Source of the DNA: Candidatus Ruthia sp. Cpac_8_S14
Lineage (GTDB): Bacteria > Pseudomonadota > Gammaproteobacteria > PS1 > Pseudothioglobaceae
DNA length: 64,000 nucleotides
NCBI GenBank assembly: GCA_021730205.1
Contig: CP072533.1
Span: forward strand, 62,001 to 126,000
Reading direction: 5' to 3'
The number at the start of each line of letters is the position of its first letter. Position 1 is the stretch's first letter. Made by a program: the position numbers and the translations under genes. Below the pieces are notes generated by a model. That model saw only the letters and a list, made by a program, of their open reading frames with translations, was not told the DNA's origin and made no database searches. Shown here piece after piece: positions 7,365-16,329 of the stretch.

Positions 7365-8355
7365 ATGAAAAAAAATCGCTATCTGCATTGGGATAAAATA
7401 CGCCATCTAAAAGCGCCTGAATTTTTTGATGGTATTGAGCAATATTGGCACTTTATTAAATTTTCACGGATGCAGTAGCAAAAAAAATCCATGAAATTGA
7501 TTCAAAGATACGTGGCTCGCTTGAGGCTAAAAGTATTGACGATAAATAAGGATAGGTATATTATTCGTTCACTGGTTGATGAGGCAATTAGCTTATCCCA
7601 ACTTGAAGGGGCGGGGCAACTACCAGAAAAGTCGCACGTGATATGTTGAAATATGAAAAAAAACCAAAGACCATTCACAGAGGATGATTTAACCCCGAGT
7701 TTAATTTTAGAATTACACGCTATTGTTGCTAGTGGTACGATGAATATTCAGATGTTGGAAAATTTAGGAAAACAATGAAATTAATGTGGTTGATAATAGC
7801 ATAGGGAGTGCTACATCATCCACCTAATTTTGAAGAGTTGCCTGATAGGTTAGAAGTTTTATGTCATTTTGCTAATGGCAATTTGCCCGATTATTTTATT
7901 CATCCTATTATTCGAGCGATTATTGTACATTTTGTTTTAGCATTTGACCACCCTTTTATAGATGACAATGGGCGTACAACTAGAGCGTTGTTTTATTGGG
8001 TGATTTTGAAAGATAATTATTGGTTGTTCCACAATATGTTATTTTATCAACAGCTAACTCAAATTTATTAATCAAAGCATCAAAGGCTTGTTTGATTATG
8101 TGAACAAGAAGCAAAATCAACAACAGCAAGCATTAAAACTACTTGCTGCATATTTAGCCGATGGAAGGCTAAACCCTCGTCAAGCTATGATTGTTCAACA
8201 CGCTATCCAAATATCCGGGAATGGGTTTATACACCATTGCAGGGCATAAATTATCTCACCATGTTAGTTATGCAACAGTTAAATCAGATTTAGAAAAACT
8301 AGACTTATTACAACAATCCAAACGTGAGACTTTATATGCGTTGATTAGCAATTAA
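7365..8355 (+). pseudogene. Fic-family protein, multiply frameshifted
   Basis: Fic proteins transfer AMP or other nucleotide groups to target proteins. The fragments appear in family order: MKKNRYLHWDKIRHLKAPEF (N-terminal region, ends at a stop at 7476), DRYIIRSLVDEAISLSQLEGA with RKVARDMLKYE (inhibitory-helix region), LHAIVASGTMN, then the catalytic block at about 7940-7990 (HPFIDDNGRTTRALFYW, a variant of HPFxxGNGR in which the first Gly is Asp), and finally a winged-helix tail (LSHHVSYATVKSDLEKLDLLQQ) ending at 8355. At least four frame changes separate these blocks, so no full protein can be made. Confidence 0.85.
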
Positions 8356-8811: not shown

Positions 8812-9429
8812 TTAAAGCCTATCGCGTTCTATTTCAGCCTTGGGACGAATTTTTAGATAATCAAACAACTTAACAATCTTGTAAACACCTTTGGCTTTAG
8901 CAGCAGTTTTGGCGGCCATATCCGCTTCGCGCTTAGTCAAAGCACCCATTAAATAAACTACCTGATCTTCAACCATCACCCGAACACGAGTTGGATGAAA
9001 TACTTCCTGATTTTGAAATAGAAGTTCAACTTGTATGGTGATGGTTGAATCTTTAGCTCGGCTAAGCAGTCCGCTTGAAGGCCCGAGTTTAATTTCATTA
9101 AATATTTGTGAAATTTTTGGCACTTGATGTTGTGCTTGCTTGATGACATAAACGCGTATTTCGGATGTCGGTACTTCTCCAGCAATGAGTACTGTTTTGT
9201 TATAAACCATGAAATTAAGGTGCGCATCATTTAATATTGAATCTTCGCTAGACCAGGTTAATAGCCTTAAGGCAATAATTTTGTCATCTAATATTTCTCC
9301 AACACTACGCCTGTCATTACTTATTGAAATTATTGAACTAACAGTTGAGGCGCCTTGAATGATTGGTGTACAGCTTGTTAGAAATAAAGAGCTTACTATT
9401 AAAAGTATTGATAGAATTATTTTATTCAT
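8812..9429 (-). CDS. dolP: BON-domain outer-membrane lipoprotein, DolP/YraP-like
   Basis: This is a lipoprotein with two BON domains, similar to DolP (YraP), which helps outer-membrane integrity. The start at 9429 (MNKIILSILLIVSSLFLTSC) gives a lipoprotein signal with lipobox LTSC. The first BON domain spans about residues 50-125 (DDKIIALRLL...VLIAGEVPTSEIRVYVI) and the second about 128-195 (VRVMVEDQVVYLMGALTKREADMAA). A longer start at 9462 exists but would place 11 extra residues before the signal. The upstream neighbour is a yraN remnant, matching the usual yraN-(diaA)-yraP order. Confidence 0.88.
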   Translation of the reverse strand: MNKIILSILLIVSSLFLTSCTPIIQGASTVSSIISISNDRRSVGEILDDKIIALRLLTWSSEDSILNDAHLNFMVYNKTVLIAGEVPTSEIRVYVIKQAQHQVPKISQIFNEIKLGPSSGLLSRAKDSTITIQVELLFQNQEVFHPTRVRVMVEDQVVYLMGALTKREADMAAKTAAKAKGVYKIVKLFDYLKIRPKAEIERDRL

Positions 9430-9434
9430 AATGT

Positions 9435-9671
9435 TTAGCTTTCGATAGTGTCTTTTATCCAAAAATTTTTAGGATATCTTAAATCAGATTTAAGCCCGAT
9501 AGCATCAAACTTGCACAGATAATCTTGATATTTCTTGGTGTGTCTGTAAATACAATTCAGCCGTTCGAATTATTATTTTTGCATTTTATGAGTAACCGTT
9601 TCTACTGCAGTGCCAAAACGAATATTAGCCTGATACCGAACTTCAATAAAAACAGATACTTTGTCAAATTT
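9435..9671 (-). pseudogene. yraN: YraN (UPF0102) nuclease-like remnant
   Basis: Reading the minus strand gives VSVFIEVRYQANIRFGTAVETVTHKMQK, then after a frameshift IIRTAELYLQTHQEISRL, and finally a tail ending in FWIKDTIES before a stop 5 bases upstream of the lipoprotein ATG. This is the C-terminal half of the YraN/UPF0102 family, including the FxEVR block. The N-terminal half (GEIDLI region) is absent, so the gene is dead. Confidence 0.78.
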
Positions 9672-10537: not shown

Positions 10538-10614
10538 GGTTATGTAGCTCAGCTGGTTAGAGCACAGCATTCATAATGCTGGGGTCGGTGGTTCAAGTCC
10601 ACCTATAACCACCA
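10538..10614 (+). tRNA. tRNA-Met (anticodon CAT), elongator type
   Basis: This is a 77-base cloverleaf: acceptor GGTTATG pairs with TATAACC (one G-U pair), followed by discriminator A and an encoded CCA. The D-arm is GCTCAGCTGGTTAGAGC. The anticodon arm CAGCATTCATAATGCTG has loop TTCATAA with anticodon CAT. The T-arm is GGTGGTTCAAGTCCACC. The G1 pair and overall sequence resemble elongator rather than initiator tRNA-Met. A tRNA-Ile2 with a lysidine-modified CAU cannot be strictly excluded. Its 3' 45 bases are duplicated at 16285-16329 as an attachment site. Confidence 0.93.
10570..10614 (+). other. attL: 45-bp core repeat in tRNA-Met 3' end
   Basis: Bases 10570-10614, from the anticodon loop to the CCA end, match 16285-16329 at 44 of 45 positions. 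The only difference is C versus A in GGGGTCGG/GGGGTAGG. This is the classic mark of a tyrosine-recombinase element integrated at a tRNA 3' end. Confidence 0.9.
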
Positions 10615-10660: not shown

Positions 10661-10688
10661 GGGCTACCACTGGGCTACCGTTTGGCAA
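10661..10688. repeat. Left arm-type repeat of the element
   Basis: GGGCTACCACTGGGCTACCG plus TTTGGCAA recurs in the same orientation at 16133-16160 with two differences. Each copy contains GGGCTACC twice with an 11-base period. Position (within about 50 to 150 bases of each att core) and structure suggest integrase arm-binding sites. Confidence 0.7.
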
Positions 10689-10737
10689 GAAATTGCCTTT
10701 ATATTAAATCTCGATTAACCCTTGCTACAGTGCTATT

Positions 10738-11049: not shown

Positions 11050-11838
11050 ATGAAGCGATATTTTCTAATATTATTATCAATATTTACAGTTTTTTTACTT
11101 TCTGGTTGTGGAAACAGTTATGACAAGTTTTACAAGTCTAATGCTGCAGTTACCCAGAAACTTGGAGACCCTCGAGGAAACTATGAAATCCTTAAGGATG
11201 GTGAAGAGCCCAAGATTGCCTATTCCAGCAAAGAGAATATGGAGGATGATATTGCCAAATTAGTGGCACAAGGCTATGAATTATTAGGTGAAAGTGCATT
11301 TGTAGGGGAAAAAGATACTAAAAAAAATGTTATTGAGCACGCAAAAAAAGTTGGCGCTACCTTGGTTTTGCTTATGGATATTAGTGAGGGTGTAAAAACA
11401 CAAACAAATACTATAATGATGCCACAGATTGCAAACACTTCATATTATGGCTCATATGGTTCTGGCTCTGCCTATACAACATATAGTGCTCCTATGAACT
11501 TTACAACCAGTTATGAGCGTGTACATCAAGAGGCATACTTCCTTATAAAAAATCCAAAAAAACTTAAGTTTGGGCTTTCAGTTGGAAATTTGACCGAGAA
11601 GGTGAAGCGAGAAGTTGAAAGAAATACTGGCGCTTTGGTTGTGGCTGTTTTTAATGATTCCCCAGCATTTTATTCAAATGTTATTAGAGGTGATGTAATT
11701 ATTAAAATTGATGGTATTGACGTTAAGAGTGCCGATGATTCGGTTAAAGTAATGGCTGAAGTTGATGCTAAATCTGGTAGTTCGGTATTGACGGTTATCA
11801 GAAAAGGAAAAATAAAAGAAGTTGTTGTTAAGTTTTAA
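11050..11838 (+). CDS. Lipoprotein with C-terminal PDZ domain
   Basis: A 262-residue exported protein of unknown specific role. The N-terminus MKRYFLILLSIFTVFLLSGC is a lipoprotein signal (lipobox LSGC, Cys about 20). The middle has a Ser/Tyr/Gly-rich stretch (about 130-165). The C-terminal about 75 residues read as a PDZ domain: GALVVAVFNDSPAFYSNVIRG, DVIIKIDGIDVKSADD, then VLTVIRKGKIKEVVVKF. No protease domain is present. It is the first gene of a plus-strand run inside the tRNA-Met element and lies 2 bases before the next gene, so the two are probably co-transcribed. Confidence 0.8.
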   Translation: MKRYFLILLSIFTVFLLSGCGNSYDKFYKSNAAVTQKLGDPRGNYEILKDGEEPKIAYSSKENMEDDIAKLVAQGYELLGESAFVGEKDTKKNVIEHAKKVGATLVLLMDISEGVKTQTNTIMMPQIANTSYYGSYGSGSAYTTYSAPMNFTTSYERVHQEAYFLIKNPKKLKFGLSVGNLTEKVKREVERNTGALVVAVFNDSPAFYSNVIRGDVIIKIDGIDVKSADDSVKVMAEVDAKSGSSVLTVIRKGKIKEVVVKF

Positions 11839-11840
11839 TT

Positions 11841-12383
11841 ATGAAATATAGTCTAATATTCTCTCTCCTTATGGCTGGCAACATATCGGCACTTGCCCTC
11901 ACAACAGAAGAAAAACTAAATATAGCAATTTCAAACATAGCAAGTGCTATTGAGGACGTTTCAGATTTTCAAAATTCTGTTATCAAAATTCCAGTTACAA
12001 GTGAAATGTCCAAAGAGTCAGTTGAAGAGGCTATGGAGTCTGTTGCCACTTCAATGGGAGTTCGCTCTGTTGGAATGCTCCCAACATCTCAAATGTATGA
12101 ACTACAAACCGACAAGAGTCAAAAATTTTACAAAACATATCAATACTCAGATATAAAAGACTCTATTATTTTGATTAATTACAATACTAAGTTGTCCACG
12201 GTTTATCCAATTAGCATACATTTGGTTGAGGGTCTTGGTGGGCAACTGTGGCTAACTACCGCTGATATTCAGTCAACAATAAGCCAACATCAATCATCAC
12301 CAAAATATATACAAGAGATTTTATATCGTGCAAAAGCGACAGCGCAGAAAATAATGAATTCTGGTGCTACTGGGGATTTTTAG
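11841..12383 (+). CDS. Exported protein, possible DUF302-like fold
   Basis: A 180-residue protein with a signal peptide (MKYSLIFSLLMAGNISALA, probable cleavage near residue 20). The later part, with YPISIHLVEGLGGQLWLTTADI, resembles the DUF302 pattern (Pxx-I-x-Val-xx-xxGxx-Trp/hydrophobic-x-T), a weak match. It follows the PDZ lipoprotein by 2 bases and is probably in the same operon. DUF302 proteins are common in sulfur-oxidising bacteria but their function is unknown. Confidence in the gene is good and in the family low. Confidence 0.7.
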   Translation: MKYSLIFSLLMAGNISALALTTEEKLNIAISNIASAIEDVSDFQNSVIKIPVTSEMSKESVEEAMESVATSMGVRSVGMLPTSQMYELQTDKSQKFYKTYQYSDIKDSIILINYNTKLSTVYPISIHLVEGLGGQLWLTTADIQSTISQHQSSPKYIQEILYRAKATAQKIMNSGATGDF

Positions 12384-12409
12384 GTGTTTAATCAATACAA
12401 GGAAGGGTT

Positions 12410-12634
12410 ATGAGATATAGAAATCCACAAGGAACTTTAACAGAGGAGTGTATGTCTTGGTTTGCAGTTCTATTGTTTAATGTTTTAACTTTTGACTTGT
12501 TTATGTTTGTTTACTTGATTTACAAAAAAGTATGGCAACACGCAATTATTTATCTTGTTGTAGCATTTTTTGTAATTCCAGTAATTATTTACCCGTTTTA
12601 TATTTTGGCTCTATTGTTAGAAAGAATTATTTAA
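12410..12634 (+). CDS. Small integral membrane protein
   Basis: A 74-residue protein with two predicted membrane helices (about 15-38, MSWFAVLLFNVLTFDLFMFV, and about 45-70, AIIYLVVAFFVIPVIIYPFY). GGAAGGG a few bases before the ATG (about 12400-12406) is a ribosome site. No family is recognised. A shifted frame continues downstream with another membrane segment (12635-12774), so the original protein may have been longer. Confidence 0.55.
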   Translation: MRYRNPQGTLTEECMSWFAVLLFNVLTFDLFMFVYLIYKKVWQHAIIYLVVAFFVIPVIIYPFYILALLLERII

Positions 12635-12774
12635 CTAATGGCTGGATAGAAGTGTCAGATACTGCAGATCAGTTGAGCGGCAATATTAAAGTCAAAAGCA
12701 AGATTGGTGATTATGCTATTCTTGCAATAATAGTCGCCCTTTCACTTACTATTGCTATTCAATTGCTGTCTTGA
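12635..12774 (+). pseudogene. Frame-shifted tail with one membrane helix
   Basis: Directly after the stop of the 74-residue membrane protein another frame reads LTNGWIEVSDTADQLSG, KVKSKIGDYAILAIIVALS and LTIAIQLLS before a TGA at 12772-12774. It has a membrane helix but no start codon of its own close by. It could be the lost C-terminus of the upstream protein (about 120 residues in total) after a one-base change, or an independent ORF beginning at 12532. Confidence 0.4.
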
Positions 12775-12800
12775 TTAAAACCTACTATATAAAAAATATT

Positions 12801-13106
12801 ATGAAAAAAAATACCACACCTTTAATAACAATAGTTTTATTTGCACTATCTGGTTGCGCCACACTACCAGATACATCTACAACAAAGAACGTTATGAAAA
12901 TTCATCAAGGAATGGACTCAGCTGAAATAATTAAAATATTTGGATACCCTAAAAACATTGATATAAGTGTTTGTGGAAAAATTCCAAATCAGTGGAATTG
13001 TACGACTTGGGAGTATGGCGATAGGGCGTATGAAAATGCAAAGTTTGTATTTCAAGGCGATAAAGGTAATTTAGTGGTAAATAATTTTAGAGTTGATAGG
13101 GATTAA
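12801..13106 (+). CDS. Small lipoprotein, SmpA/OmlA (BamE)-like
   Basis: A 101-residue lipoprotein starting at the ATG at 12801 (MKKNTTPLITIVLFALSGC, lipobox LSGC). After the lipid anchor, KIHQGMDSAEIIKIFGYPKN resembles the beta-alpha signature of SmpA/OmlA proteins (xxGMsxxeVxxxlGxP). A conserved-looking Trp-Glu-Tyr and a final beta strand follow. Two further Cys residues may form a disulfide. An upstream in-frame start at 12771 would hide the signal and is unlikely. Chromosomal bamE is elsewhere, so this is element cargo. Confidence 0.65.
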   Translation: MKKNTTPLITIVLFALSGCATLPDTSTTKNVMKIHQGMDSAEIIKIFGYPKNIDISVCGKIPNQWNCTTWEYGDRAYENAKFVFQGDKGNLVVNNFRVDRD

Positions 13107-13113
13107 GGCGCAT

Positions 13114-13380
13114 ATGATGAAAATATTAACAATCGTAATATCTATAGTTGTATCATTCACATCAAGTGCTAATTGGGTGGAAACAAATAAAGGTTTATAT
13201 AAGATTTTAGAACTTGAGGGTGCGAAAATTATTAGTGTTAATTCGGCACATAAGGATTCAACTTACACCCTAACAACCATAACAACAAATTCTGGACTTT
13301 ATAGGTGTTTTGAAACTGTATATATGGATGATAGATATATTGACGATCGAAATTCTTGCTATGTTTTGAGGGCAGACTAA
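13114..13380 (+). CDS. Small secreted protein of unknown function
   Basis: About 88 residues starting at tandem ATGs (13114/13117), with signal peptide MKILTIVISIVVSFTSSA followed by NWVETNKGLYK. The mature part is about 70 residues, mostly beta, with two Cys (YRCFE and NSCYV) that could form a disulfide. It slightly resembles the small uncharacterised periplasmic proteins found next to BamE-like lipoproteins. It is the last gene of the plus-strand cargo run. Confidence 0.55.
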   Translation: MMKILTIVISIVVSFTSSANWVETNKGLYKILELEGAKIISVNSAHKDSTYTLTTITTNSGLYRCFETVYMDDRYIDDRNSCYVLRAD

Positions 13381-13767
13381 AACTACACAAATTAATAACT
13401 TTAACATTGCTTAGCCCACAACTATTAACCACAACTAATCATTAGTACAACTCACTCCCCGAACTTCACCTAAAGGGTTCAGTCCGTGAGTTATATCCAA
13501 TGGTCGTGGATAAAGTTATGGATAAGCCTTAAGCACCCCTAATGCACATACAGAAATCACCATAGGTATGGCTAACTATATAAAGGTGTTTGAAAACTAC
13601 ACTGAGAGAAGTATAGAATAAGTCTTTAAATCAAACCTATTTAGCCTATAGTTGATATGCTTCAATGGTCGATAGGTATGAAAAGCATACCGAGTAAGTA
13701 TGAATATCAGCACGGGCGATTTAATTTATTCACGTTTGATATTTGCCCTTTTTACGTTTTTTTTATA
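13381..13767. other. 387-bp non-coding stretch inside the element
   Basis: No convincing gene was found on either strand. It holds an inverted repeat GGTATG-AAAAG-CATACC (13675-13691), several other GTATG words, and GGGCGAT...TATTTGCCC before a T-run near 13712-13770 that could terminate the minus-strand winged-helix gene. Position and repeats make it a candidate for a replication origin or regulatory region of the element, but no clear iteron array is seen. Confidence 0.35.
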
Positions 13768-14505
13768 TTACGTCTTCTTTTGCTCGGTATTTTTGTATTT
13801 TAGATTTTTACCTTCAATAAAACACTTTGATGGCTTTTTGTTTGTTGCCAAGTGACTATATAGGTACGTGTTTTTTTCTAAGTCTATAAAGTCATTAACT
13901 TTTTCCCAAGTTATGGCGTAGAGCGTCGGTGCTTTATATCCTCCATAACTCATACCCCCATAAACATTGATAGCAATAAAACCCTTCTGTTCAAGTTCAT
14001 CTCTTGCTCTGTACATTGTTTGGTTTGATTTGAAGTAATCTTTTAATAAGGAGTGCGTTATTTGAAGGTCGCCATTATTCTTGCCTTTATATTGATAGGC
14101 AAGATGTATTAACAACTTAACAGCATTTCCACTTAATGATTTGAAGGCGTCACAGCGTATTACATAGCGAGGAATTTCAGCAAAGTTTGGCTTGTTGTTT
14201 TTTCTTTTTTTCATATCTTTGTCTATTGTTGATTGTCTTTTAATTCTTGTCGCTTTTGAATCTTGATTCTGTGGCTTGGTTTTAGTAAAAAAGTTATTAT
14301 CGTTTTCAGATGTCAGTTTCCAGAGGTTGTCACTGGTAATTTTTCCATCAATTACAAAACTACTACCTTTTAGCGCTTGGTTTTGTGGCGTTCTCCAAAA
14401 CTCCATTTCAATAGGCTGAGCAATAGGTTCATCGCCATCAAGTGTTGGGAAATCTTTTATATTTCTACCCAATTCGTGAGCATTCAAGCCCAAAAGCAAA
14501 AACAA
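13768..14505 (-). CDS. Winged-helix replication/regulatory-like protein of the element
   Basis: The frame is open from about 14505. An internal ATG at 14214 would give a 148-residue protein beginning MKKRKNNKPNFAEIPRYVIR. That part resembles helix-turn-helix proteins of integrative elements and plasmids: AFKSLSGNAVKLLIHLAYQY, NNGDLQITHSLLKDYF, then TMYRARDELEQKGFI and a wing (GGMSYGGYKAPTLYAITW). The upstream ~97 codons (FPTLDGDEPIAQPIEMEFW...) look coding too and probably belong to the broken gene before it. Function is inferred only as DNA binding. Confidence 0.55.
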   Translation of the reverse strand: MFLLLGLNAHELGRNIKDFPTLDGDEPIAQPIEMEFWRTPQNQALKGSSFVIDGKITSDNLWKLTSENDNNFFTKTKPQNQDSKATRIKRQSTIDKDMKKRKNNKPNFAEIPRYVIRCDAFKSLSGNAVKLLIHLAYQYKGKNNGDLQITHSLLKDYFKSNQTMYRARDELEQKGFIAINVYGGMSYGGYKAPTLYAITWEKVNDFIDLEKNTYLYSHLATNKKPSKCFIEGKNLKYKNTEQKKT

Positions 14506-14530: not shown

Positions 14531-14807
14531 TTAAGTGCTAAGTTTGTAATTTAATTCTACAAAGTCTTGTCCTTCCTTGATATTTGGATTGATACCATCT
14601 GCTATTAAATGAAAACTTAGTACTGAATTCCATTTTTGGAAATATTCACCTTTGTTTTTTGAAAGAAAATCAAGCCACTTCTTAATTTTACAAAATAAGA
14701 GTTCCAGTAGTTTCAATGCTTACTATTCTATTGTCATCAATATATTCAAATATGTGTTCATAATCTATTTCGGGACATTTGTATGGAACTACTTTCCTCA
14801 TAGTCAT
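14531..14807 (-). pseudogene. Broken gene coupled to the integrase
   Basis: An ATG at 14807 overlaps the integrase stop (ATGA) and reads MTMRKVVPYKCPEIDYEHIF, then EYIDDNRIVSIETTG, to a stop at 14688. A second frame on the same strand continues KIKKWLDFLSKNKGEYFQKW and IADGINPNIKEGQDFVELNY to 14531. A third frame (13768-14505) begins just after with LTYNQALFLLLGLNAHELGR. Co-orientation and lack of other starts suggest one ancestral gene with two frameshifts. The family is unknown. Confidence 0.5.
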
Positions 14808-16037
14808 TTAACTTGCTCCAGTATGAATTCACTTATCCTTTCCATTGGCTGTCTTAGACTTTCCACTTCTTTAATGATATAGCCAACAGTTACATCTCTT
14901 GTATTCTTATGATTCATAAGGCGTTTGAGTGTGTACTCCCTAATGCTTAGACCTTCAGCGATGGTGATAAAGGTTCGTCTTAAGTCGTGAATGCTAAAAT
15001 AAATTCCACTAATAGTCCTTGCTTTGACTACTTGTTTTTGAGGAGTATTAATTGGCTTGTTAGGGTCGTTTACCCTCAAATACAAAAAGACCGCTTGTAT
15101 TGGTCTTGCGTTGGCTTAATAAGTCCATTAAATAGTCAGTTAACGGCAATGAGTGTGTTTCGTGGTTTTTGGTGTCTTCAATGGTGAGGCTTCTATTTTT
15201 AAAATCAATATTTGCCCACATCAAAGTTGAGGCTTCACTCTTTCTAAGTCCAGTCATTAAAACAAATATGAAAAAGTCTTTTGCTATTTGGCTATTATTT
15301 GGCTGTTTTTTGTTCGTGCCATATATATTTTTTGTATTGAGTTTGTGAGTTGGTAGTTCTTGTATGGCATTCCACCACGTTTTTAGTTCGTGATTTTTAA
15401 TAATAGTTTGCTTGCGTGTTTCTCTATTCCACGCTTTAATGTGGCTTAGTCTTGATACTGGGTTATGCAAGATAATCGGATTGCTTTTTGCATCCTCATA
15501 TTCACCTATCGCATAATTAAACAAAGCCCTTAATAAGCGCATTGTGGTGTTTGCCCGTGTGGGTGATTGCTTGGTAATTTTGCGGTGACGTTTTTCCACC
15601 ATATCACGGTTAATGCTTAATAGTTCTTTATTGCCCCAGTCTTTAAGATAGCCGTTAAATGTGTATAAATAATTTGTAGTGGTGTTTGCCTTTAGATTTG
15701 TGCCACGTGAAGTTATATAGTCTTCTAATACTTGATTGAGGGTGATTTTTTTTAACTTATCTTCTTTGGCTTTGCTGTTTGGGTTTATGCCGTCACTAAT
15801 AATATTTAATACAGTCCTCGCTTGTTTTCTCGCCTGTGGAATGGTCATATCGGGAAAGTGCCCCAGTGTAGTAAAAACCTTTTTTCCGTTTACCCGTTTA
15901 ATGGTTAAAAATGTTTTTGTTTCCGTACTGGTTAGTCTTAATGCCAGATCCTTGACGTCACTATCATAATAAATTGATCGCTTGCCTTTGCTTGGTAGCG
16001 GCAAAACATCTATCTGTTTAACTGTAAAGTTATTCAT
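14804..16037 (-). pseudogene. Tyrosine integrase (P4-type), frameshifted
   Basis: The N-terminal part (15060-16037) has an arm-binding domain (VKDLALRLTSTETKTFL, LGHFPDMTIPQARKQA), a core-binding domain, and the first catalytic Arg in FVLMTGLRKSEASTLMW. The C-terminal part (14804-15085) has HDLRRTF with the His and second Arg, LMNHKNTRDVTVGYI with the third His and the Tyr nucleophile. The parts overlap in different frames near 15060-15085 (...GLFVFEG / RVNDPNKP...), so one base change restores about 410 residues. All catalytic residues are kept. It lies next to attR and reads inward. Confidence 0.88.
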
Positions 16038-16132: not shown

Positions 16133-16160
16133 GGGCTACCACTGGGCTACCATTTGGTAG
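16133..16160. repeat. Right arm-type repeat of the element
   Basis: GGGCTACCACTGGGCTACCA plus TTTGGTAG is the direct-repeat partner of 10661-10688. It lies between the integrase start and attR. Confidence 0.7.
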
Positions 16161-16284
16161 GTAAATATTCAGTTTTAAAAATATCTACAAGAAAAATTGA
16201 CACCCGTATAAATCCATTTAAATAGGGGTTTAATAGATTATAATAGAGTTGTTGGGAAGTGTGAGGATAATGTATTAAAACATT

Positions 16285-16329
16285 TTCATAATGCTGGGGT
16301 AGGTGGTTCAAGTCCACCTATAACCACCA
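16285..16329 (+). other. attR: duplicated 3' part of tRNA-Met
   Basis: Forty-five bases match the tRNA-Met 3' part with one mismatch. The preceding bases do not complete an acceptor or D-arm, so this is not a functional tRNA. It marks the distal end of the element. Confidence 0.9.

Follow-up and report, generated by a model that had tools for sequence, protein, structure and literature searches.

Five envelope-type genes in a small tRNA-Met integrative island of a clam-symbiont-type bacterium

Introduction

Among the small satellites of bacteria, PICMI elements are about 6 kb long, encode a tyrosine integrase and end in direct repeats, and have a hotspot of defence genes between the replication gene and the distal end (PMC10803314). 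Islands integrated into tRNA genes by means of P4-type integrases are likewise recognised by a few traits: an Arm-DNA-bind_3 domain in the integrase, a repeat of the tRNA 3′ end at the far end of the island, and a hotspot cargo that varies. The locus described here lies in a stretch of 64,000 nucleotides of Candidatus Ruthia sp. Cpac_8_S14 (contig CP072533.1, positions 62,001 to 126,000; hereafter the window, in which all coordinates are counted). Its size, tyrosine integrase and direct-repeat ends are common to it and PICMI, and its layout is also PICMI-like, with a gene overlapping the integrase gene by ATGA, then a replication gene, then accessory genes up to the far end. The traits listed for tRNA-integrated islands are found in it as well. 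We report on the accessory genes, here called P1 to P5.

Results

The P1-P5 region is an island integrated in tRNA-Met

The region containing P1 to P5 is a site-specific integrative island inserted in a tRNA-Met gene of a clam-symbiont-type bacterium. The target, tRNA-Met (CAT), was located with ARAGORN and Rfam at 10538..10614 on the plus strand, and the copy standing at the island start is intact. Its last 45 nt (attL, 10570-10614) are repeated directly, with one mismatch (98% identity), at 16285..16329 on the same strand (attR), which gives an insertion length of 5,715 bp between the two tRNA-Met 3′-end copies. We consider the region to be a 5,715-bp insertion because, in four genomes of the same genus (G002, G009, G010 and G011), the site is empty: tRNA-Met directly adjoins the transketolase flank, itself about 90-97% identical to that of the window. 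The term cargo, used for these genes, with no element ends given, in an earlier note made from the letters of this DNA, was therefore well chosen, as the genes lie between tRNA-Met repeats, in an island for which relatives offer clean empty sites. Paired GGGCTACC repeats are found near both ends, at 10661..10692 on the attL side (a direct repeat with tandem copies) and as a matching set at 16133..16164 on the attR side. The two sets are 88% identical over 32 nt in a direct-repeat search, and are presumed to be arm-type sites. The GC content is 0.339 for the cargo, 0.341 for the island and 0.376 for the window.

Two other genes of the window were noted in passing. At 7800-8355, a Fic-like motif (HPFIDDNGR) is found in a gene that is fragmented, contains in-frame stops and is probably a pseudogene, and a BON-domain lipoprotein is encoded on the minus strand at 8812-9462, a similar gene being present near coaE in G030.

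Integration and replication genes, and signs of decay

The P4-type tyrosine integrase gene (14804..16037, minus strand) is frameshifted, its N-terminal part being encoded at 15060-16037 and its C-terminal part at 14804-15085. The product matches Arm-DNA-bind_3 and Phage_integrase in Pfam, as well as phrog_1 (7e-35), and is 56% identical to an integrase of G053. The G053 gene was considered as an intact copy and rejected, since it consists of two ORFs separated by a stop. Overlapping the integrase stop by ATGA is a further minus-strand gene (14531..14806), which from its translation is apparently frameshifted too; the same ATGA overlap is found in G053 (L117). A third minus-strand gene (13768..14214) encodes a replication-initiator-like HTH protein of 148 aa, counted from its ATG (Rep; phrog_270, 3.7e-6). 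Proteins encoded in G048 and G052, both from the same bacterial family, share 45-48% identity with it. In one of these two genomes the relative adjoins an integrase gene and a tmRNA. Weak, imperfect DnaA-box-like motifs (scan with one mismatch allowed) are scattered over the non-coding stretch 13420..13740, which is a possible replication origin. A promoter and terminator scan gave no signal above shuffled sequence.

Among the island proteins scanned, none matched a Pfam primase, the satellite type (DUF3987/DUF5906) included, Rep being matched by phrog_270. We recognised no regulator gene among those of the island, and in particular none of AlpA type; AlpA-like genes, called by mutual similarity and by reading, are present in or near the islands of G030, G052, G053 and G076.

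In the assembly, three genes are thus frameshifted within 5.7 kb, namely the integrase gene, the ORF overlapping it and the DUF2628-type cargo gene P3 (see below), so that the island looks defective, as it probably is. Alternatively, the frameshifts could be assembly errors.

A same-strand run of envelope-type genes

The cargo consists of five ORFs on one strand (11050-11838, 11841-12383, 12410-12634, 12801-13106 and 13114-13380), placed between the Rep gene and the tRNA-side end of the island, and oriented opposite to int and rep. The run of five genes that had been pointed out is therefore real as to strand, but its third ORF is half of a frameshifted gene. The close spacing seen between the first two genes amounts to 2 nt, and the P2-P3 and P4-P5 gaps are each below 30 nt. 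An N-terminal hydrophobic segment above a simple cut-off was found in 4 of the 5 cargo ORFs (P2 falling just under it), versus 8 of 43 neighbouring core genes (Fisher p about 0.01), which means that such an envelope-directed run exceeds what chance would give for random genes. P1, P2, P4 and P5 are open and have signal sequences, in a reduced genome. No known anti-phage defence was matched in PADLOC by P1, P2, the P3 fragment, P4 or P5.

P1 (11050..11838, plus strand) had been described as a PDZ lipoprotein, and it is one: it has the lipobox LLSGC, an un-named N-terminal domain and a C-terminal PDZ domain (Pfam PDZ_2, 38.7 bits for a cut-off of 27; 1.2e-9). This PDZ is closest to PDZ1 of DegQ/DegP. 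In the predicted structure, which is moderately confident (mean pLDDT 67.5), the PDZ part compares with DegQ at Z 15.6 and 2.1 A over 90 aligned residues. The match is restricted to that part, and the trypsin-like protease domain of HtrA/Deg proteins is absent. P1 has in common with DegP/DegQ-type proteins the C-terminal PDZ; unlike them, it is a lipoprotein with an un-named N-terminal domain, and it has no serine-protease domain. The PDZ of P1 could dock the C-terminal tails of envelope proteins.

The N-terminal domain of P1 is covered by no Pfam or NCBIfam model. Searches of 145 relatives and of a 369-genome sample of the class gave no match to it, the sample yielding PDZ parts only. A profile search of PDB sequences with this domain returned nothing significant, and a fold search was filled by PDZ matches; an RcsF- or YbjQ-like fold is a possible lead. 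The query alignments for P1 included hand-made sequences modelled on a protein family, which served only to choose search patterns. With such sequences as queries, a first scan found no relatives, and a whole-genome search with one of them gave, outside the window genome, PDZ-part matches only. A degenerate scan of the genome collection led to seven real relatives (L119-L125), 26-33% identical to P1, all of them confirmed in tblastn with P1 itself as query. Their hosts are Verrucomicrobia, Acidobacteria, Dyella, Pseudomonas and an uncultured proteobacterium. Two of the seven have no PDZ, so the un-named lipoprotein domain occurs with or without PDZ in several phyla. The neighbours of the seven genes, read by eye, showed no likeness to P2-P5, and none was shared among the loci.

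P2 (11841..12383, plus strand) encodes an exported and diverged relative of the DUF302 family, 35-39% identical to proteins of that family (alignment A3). P2 itself does not match DUF302 (PF03625), whereas its 17 companions in the 18-protein alignment all do; its earlier designation as an exported DUF302-like protein thus holds by way of its relatives, but not by a domain match of its own. The C-terminal GDF ending is common to P2 and the DUF302 proteins of the same bacterial family, from which P2 differs by a Sec signal replacing the membrane anchor, and by the loss of the two near-invariant cysteines and of the PRTAM stretch. These relatives are a core chromosomal DUF302 protein in most of the bacterial family. 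The window genome also has a chromosomal paralogue, with neighbours read as a DUF1538 transporter pair, a PII-like protein and a CBS protein, names that come from reading only. The structure model of P2 (pLDDT 50) was set aside.

P3 (12410..12774, plus strand) is the gene of a DUF2628-type membrane protein; a frameshift splits it into two overlapping ORFs, 12410-12634 and 12532-12774. Because both align to one intact protein of G030 (115 aa, L095:8013-8360), of which they cover the N- and C-terminal parts, we conclude that the 74-aa model of P3 is a fragment and that the gene is frameshifted: the membrane protein announced by the earlier note is there in kind, but was given incomplete. Against DUF2628 (PF10947; cut-off 23 bits), the window fragment scores 17.9 bits and the intact G030 homologue 25 bits. 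This homologue belongs to a tRNA-Met island of another genus, within a run of five exported or membrane genes, and P3 is the only cargo gene with a relative found inside another tRNA-Met insertion. None of its four companions in G030 is homologous to P1, P2, P4 or P5, and relatives of two G030 cargo genes are single chromosomal genes elsewhere.

P4 (12801..13106, plus strand) is a small lipoprotein (lipobox ALSGC) with a weak BamE/OsmE likeness. Calling it BamE-like, as had been done, went too far: the OsmE model gives E=0.013 and 15.3 bits where 65 are required, and there is no SmpA/OmlA match. P4 matches phrog_3135 at 7.5e-6. The superinfection exclusion protein Cor was considered for P4 and rejected, as the similarity (E=0.012) is limited to residues 1-48, mostly signal peptide. 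P5 (13114..13380, plus strand) is a small exported protein whose N-terminal hydrophobic segment passes the cut-off, in agreement with its description as a small secreted protein. No convincing relatives of P4 or P5 were found in 115 relatives or in the 369-genome class sample.

The five genes are found together nowhere else

The P1-P5 combination was found nowhere else in the genome, phage and plasmid collections searched; single-sequence searches such as these can miss relatives under about 25% identity. As a conserved five-gene system, it did not turn up in 145 relatives (searched for P1 and P2), in 115 relatives (P3, P4, P5 and Rep) or in the 369-genome class samples (P1, and P4 with P5). 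Scans of IMG/VR with P1, P2 and P4, with Rep (as a single sequence and as an alignment) and with the G030 DUF2628 protein gave no matches. In the phage and plasmid collections there were zero protein matches for P1, P4 or P5, and the sole match of the island DNA was to an integrase stretch of a Legionella fallonii plasmid, none being to a phage.

The earlier note had taken the run as a candidate for an undescribed system, an idea that recurrence of the gene order would support, and that homologues found only as unrelated single genes would speak against. Homologues of P1 (seven loci with no shared neighbours) and of P2 (a chromosomal core protein) occur apart, which argues against a system. 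The set as such does not recur, the one exception to the picture of single genes being the P3 homologue, present without the others in the G030 tRNA-Met island. The suggested ties of P1-P5 to stress sensing or superinfection exclusion came down to the signal-peptide-region match of P4 with Cor.

The tRNA-Met gene is a hotspot in relatives

The same tRNA-Met is occupied by other islands in G001, G003, G004, G005 and G008. In four of these genomes (all except G003) the islands are decayed, about 3 to 5 kb long, and contain remnants of related integrases, while G003 has a restriction-system remnant with transposases. In G007, an att repeat of this tRNA-Met is located on another contig, together with a larger gene set. 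Other genera of the family also have tRNA-Met insertions or att repeats (G030, G068, G053 and G023), and in G076 many consecutive exported genes come after tRNA-Met, along with an AlpA-like gene. The cargo varies among these loci: exported or membrane genes, or genes with an N-terminal hydrophobic segment, make up 5 of 5 in G030 and 6 of the 6 tested in G076, and 1 of 13 in G007. The recurring pattern is thus a tRNA-Met hotspot, with islands that sometimes carry runs of envelope genes. Such runs at one tRNA in three genomes, which are small counts, could reflect a joint envelope function or chance accumulation.

Several genes at these loci deserve a brief description. An exported SNase-type nuclease is encoded in four Vesicomyosocius-clade genomes, within their decayed tRNA-Met islands (L063 2750-3172, L060 466-891, L061 and L062). 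The att-linked stretch of G007 (L058 874-8128), read by eye, includes TIR-like, ParA-like, OLD-like ATPase and ArdC-like genes. In G076 (L110 516-9570), large exported proteins are encoded after tRNA-Met, several of them sharing an N-terminal motif similar to GGCPDGSEPVKSISADGTYFVY; one, by reading, looks like a glycoside hydrolase, and FG-GAP-like repeats occur in others. Finally, a gene for a small protein of GGRKKG(T/S)PNK type directly follows tRNA-Met in three genomes (loci of this type: L056 337-597, L102 9923-10222, L103 about 414-700 and L097 8907-9200); the PHROG families that it matches have no assigned function.

Discussion

P1 to P5 are, in all likelihood, the accessory cargo of a small (5.7 kb) tRNA-Met integrative island. 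That the five envelope genes lie side by side is explained by their being the cargo of one mobile island, now partly broken, and as they were found together nowhere else in our searches, we regard them as an ordinary accessory collection and not as a new conserved system. Separately acquired envelope genes are most likely, in preference to one co-evolved machine. The cargo would be read as one transcription unit, and its products, predicted from sequence to be exported, would reach the envelope via Sec: P1 and P4 would be lipoproteins, P3 an inner-membrane protein, and P2 and P5 periplasmic or secreted. Genes acquired separately in this way might alter the surface or periplasm of the carrier in the style of lysogenic conversion, for instance by hindering phage entry. 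We hold this surface-changing role as tentative and rather doubtful. It is made plausible by the fact that small satellites place defence genes in a comparable stretch (PMC10803314), and a role in phage exclusion is, by this analogy, possible.

A stronger version would have P1-P5 serve a phage satellite as a module dedicated to superinfection exclusion or envelope defence, blocking adsorption or DNA injection by competitors. The anatomy of the island is indeed satellite-like (small size, integrase, replication gene, ATGA-overlapping gene after int), its cargo occupies a stretch comparable to the PICMI defence hotspot (PMC10803314), and other tRNA-Met loci have exported-gene runs or an exported nuclease. 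However, with no PADLOC match for any of the five, a Cor similarity confined to the signal-peptide region of P4 as the sole exclusion-family match, and a five-gene set absent elsewhere in our searches, such a module is unlikely. Broader still, and quite improbable in our eyes, is the idea that the tRNA-Met islands of this family are satellite-like elements specialised in swapped envelope operons against competing phages, of which P1-P5 would be one exclusion cassette. Very unlikely, finally, is an envelope-stress or assembly module, in which the PDZ and BamE-like lipoproteins would monitor or assist the folding of outer-membrane proteins: the kinship of the P1 PDZ with PDZ1 of DegQ/DegP and the faint OsmE likeness of P4 would fit, but P1 has no protease domain, P4 stays under every BamE/OsmE threshold, the P1-P4 pair does not recur, and the island has no gene that we recognise as a regulator.

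The cargo set is probably a relic under decay in this lineage. That it is a relic only, in the same island but functionless now and too recently so for full decay, is a serious contender, if short of probable, given three frameshifted genes in 5.7 kb and the decayed remains of related integrases that several relatives have at this site. Against this, P1, P2, P4 and P5 are open with their signal sequences, and the PDZ of P1 is complete; in a reduced genome, these four genes could have been kept by selection.

Taking the genes as cargo of a mobile island, what emerges is a tRNA-Met hotspot in the reduced genomes of a clam-symbiont-type lineage, repeatedly invaded by mobile islands, some of them with envelope-gene runs, together with an un-named lipoprotein domain, that of the P1 N terminus, thinly spread over several phyla. 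The question raised is a modest one, namely why some tRNA-Met insertions carry envelope genes in runs. Should the envelope genes of these islands prove to influence the entry of phages, the search for exclusion genes would gain a new hunting ground.

With respect to described elements, PICMI integrate next to fis in Vibrionaceae, whereas the present island uses tRNA-Met in a host of Thioglobaceae type, and no helper phage is known for it. Because neither a satellite primase nor AlpA was found, and because the site is tRNA-Met, we did not file the island as a PICMI or a PICI. Compared with tRNA-integrated islands that have P4-type integrases, the sole difference is the uniform, envelope-type cargo found in some of the islands.
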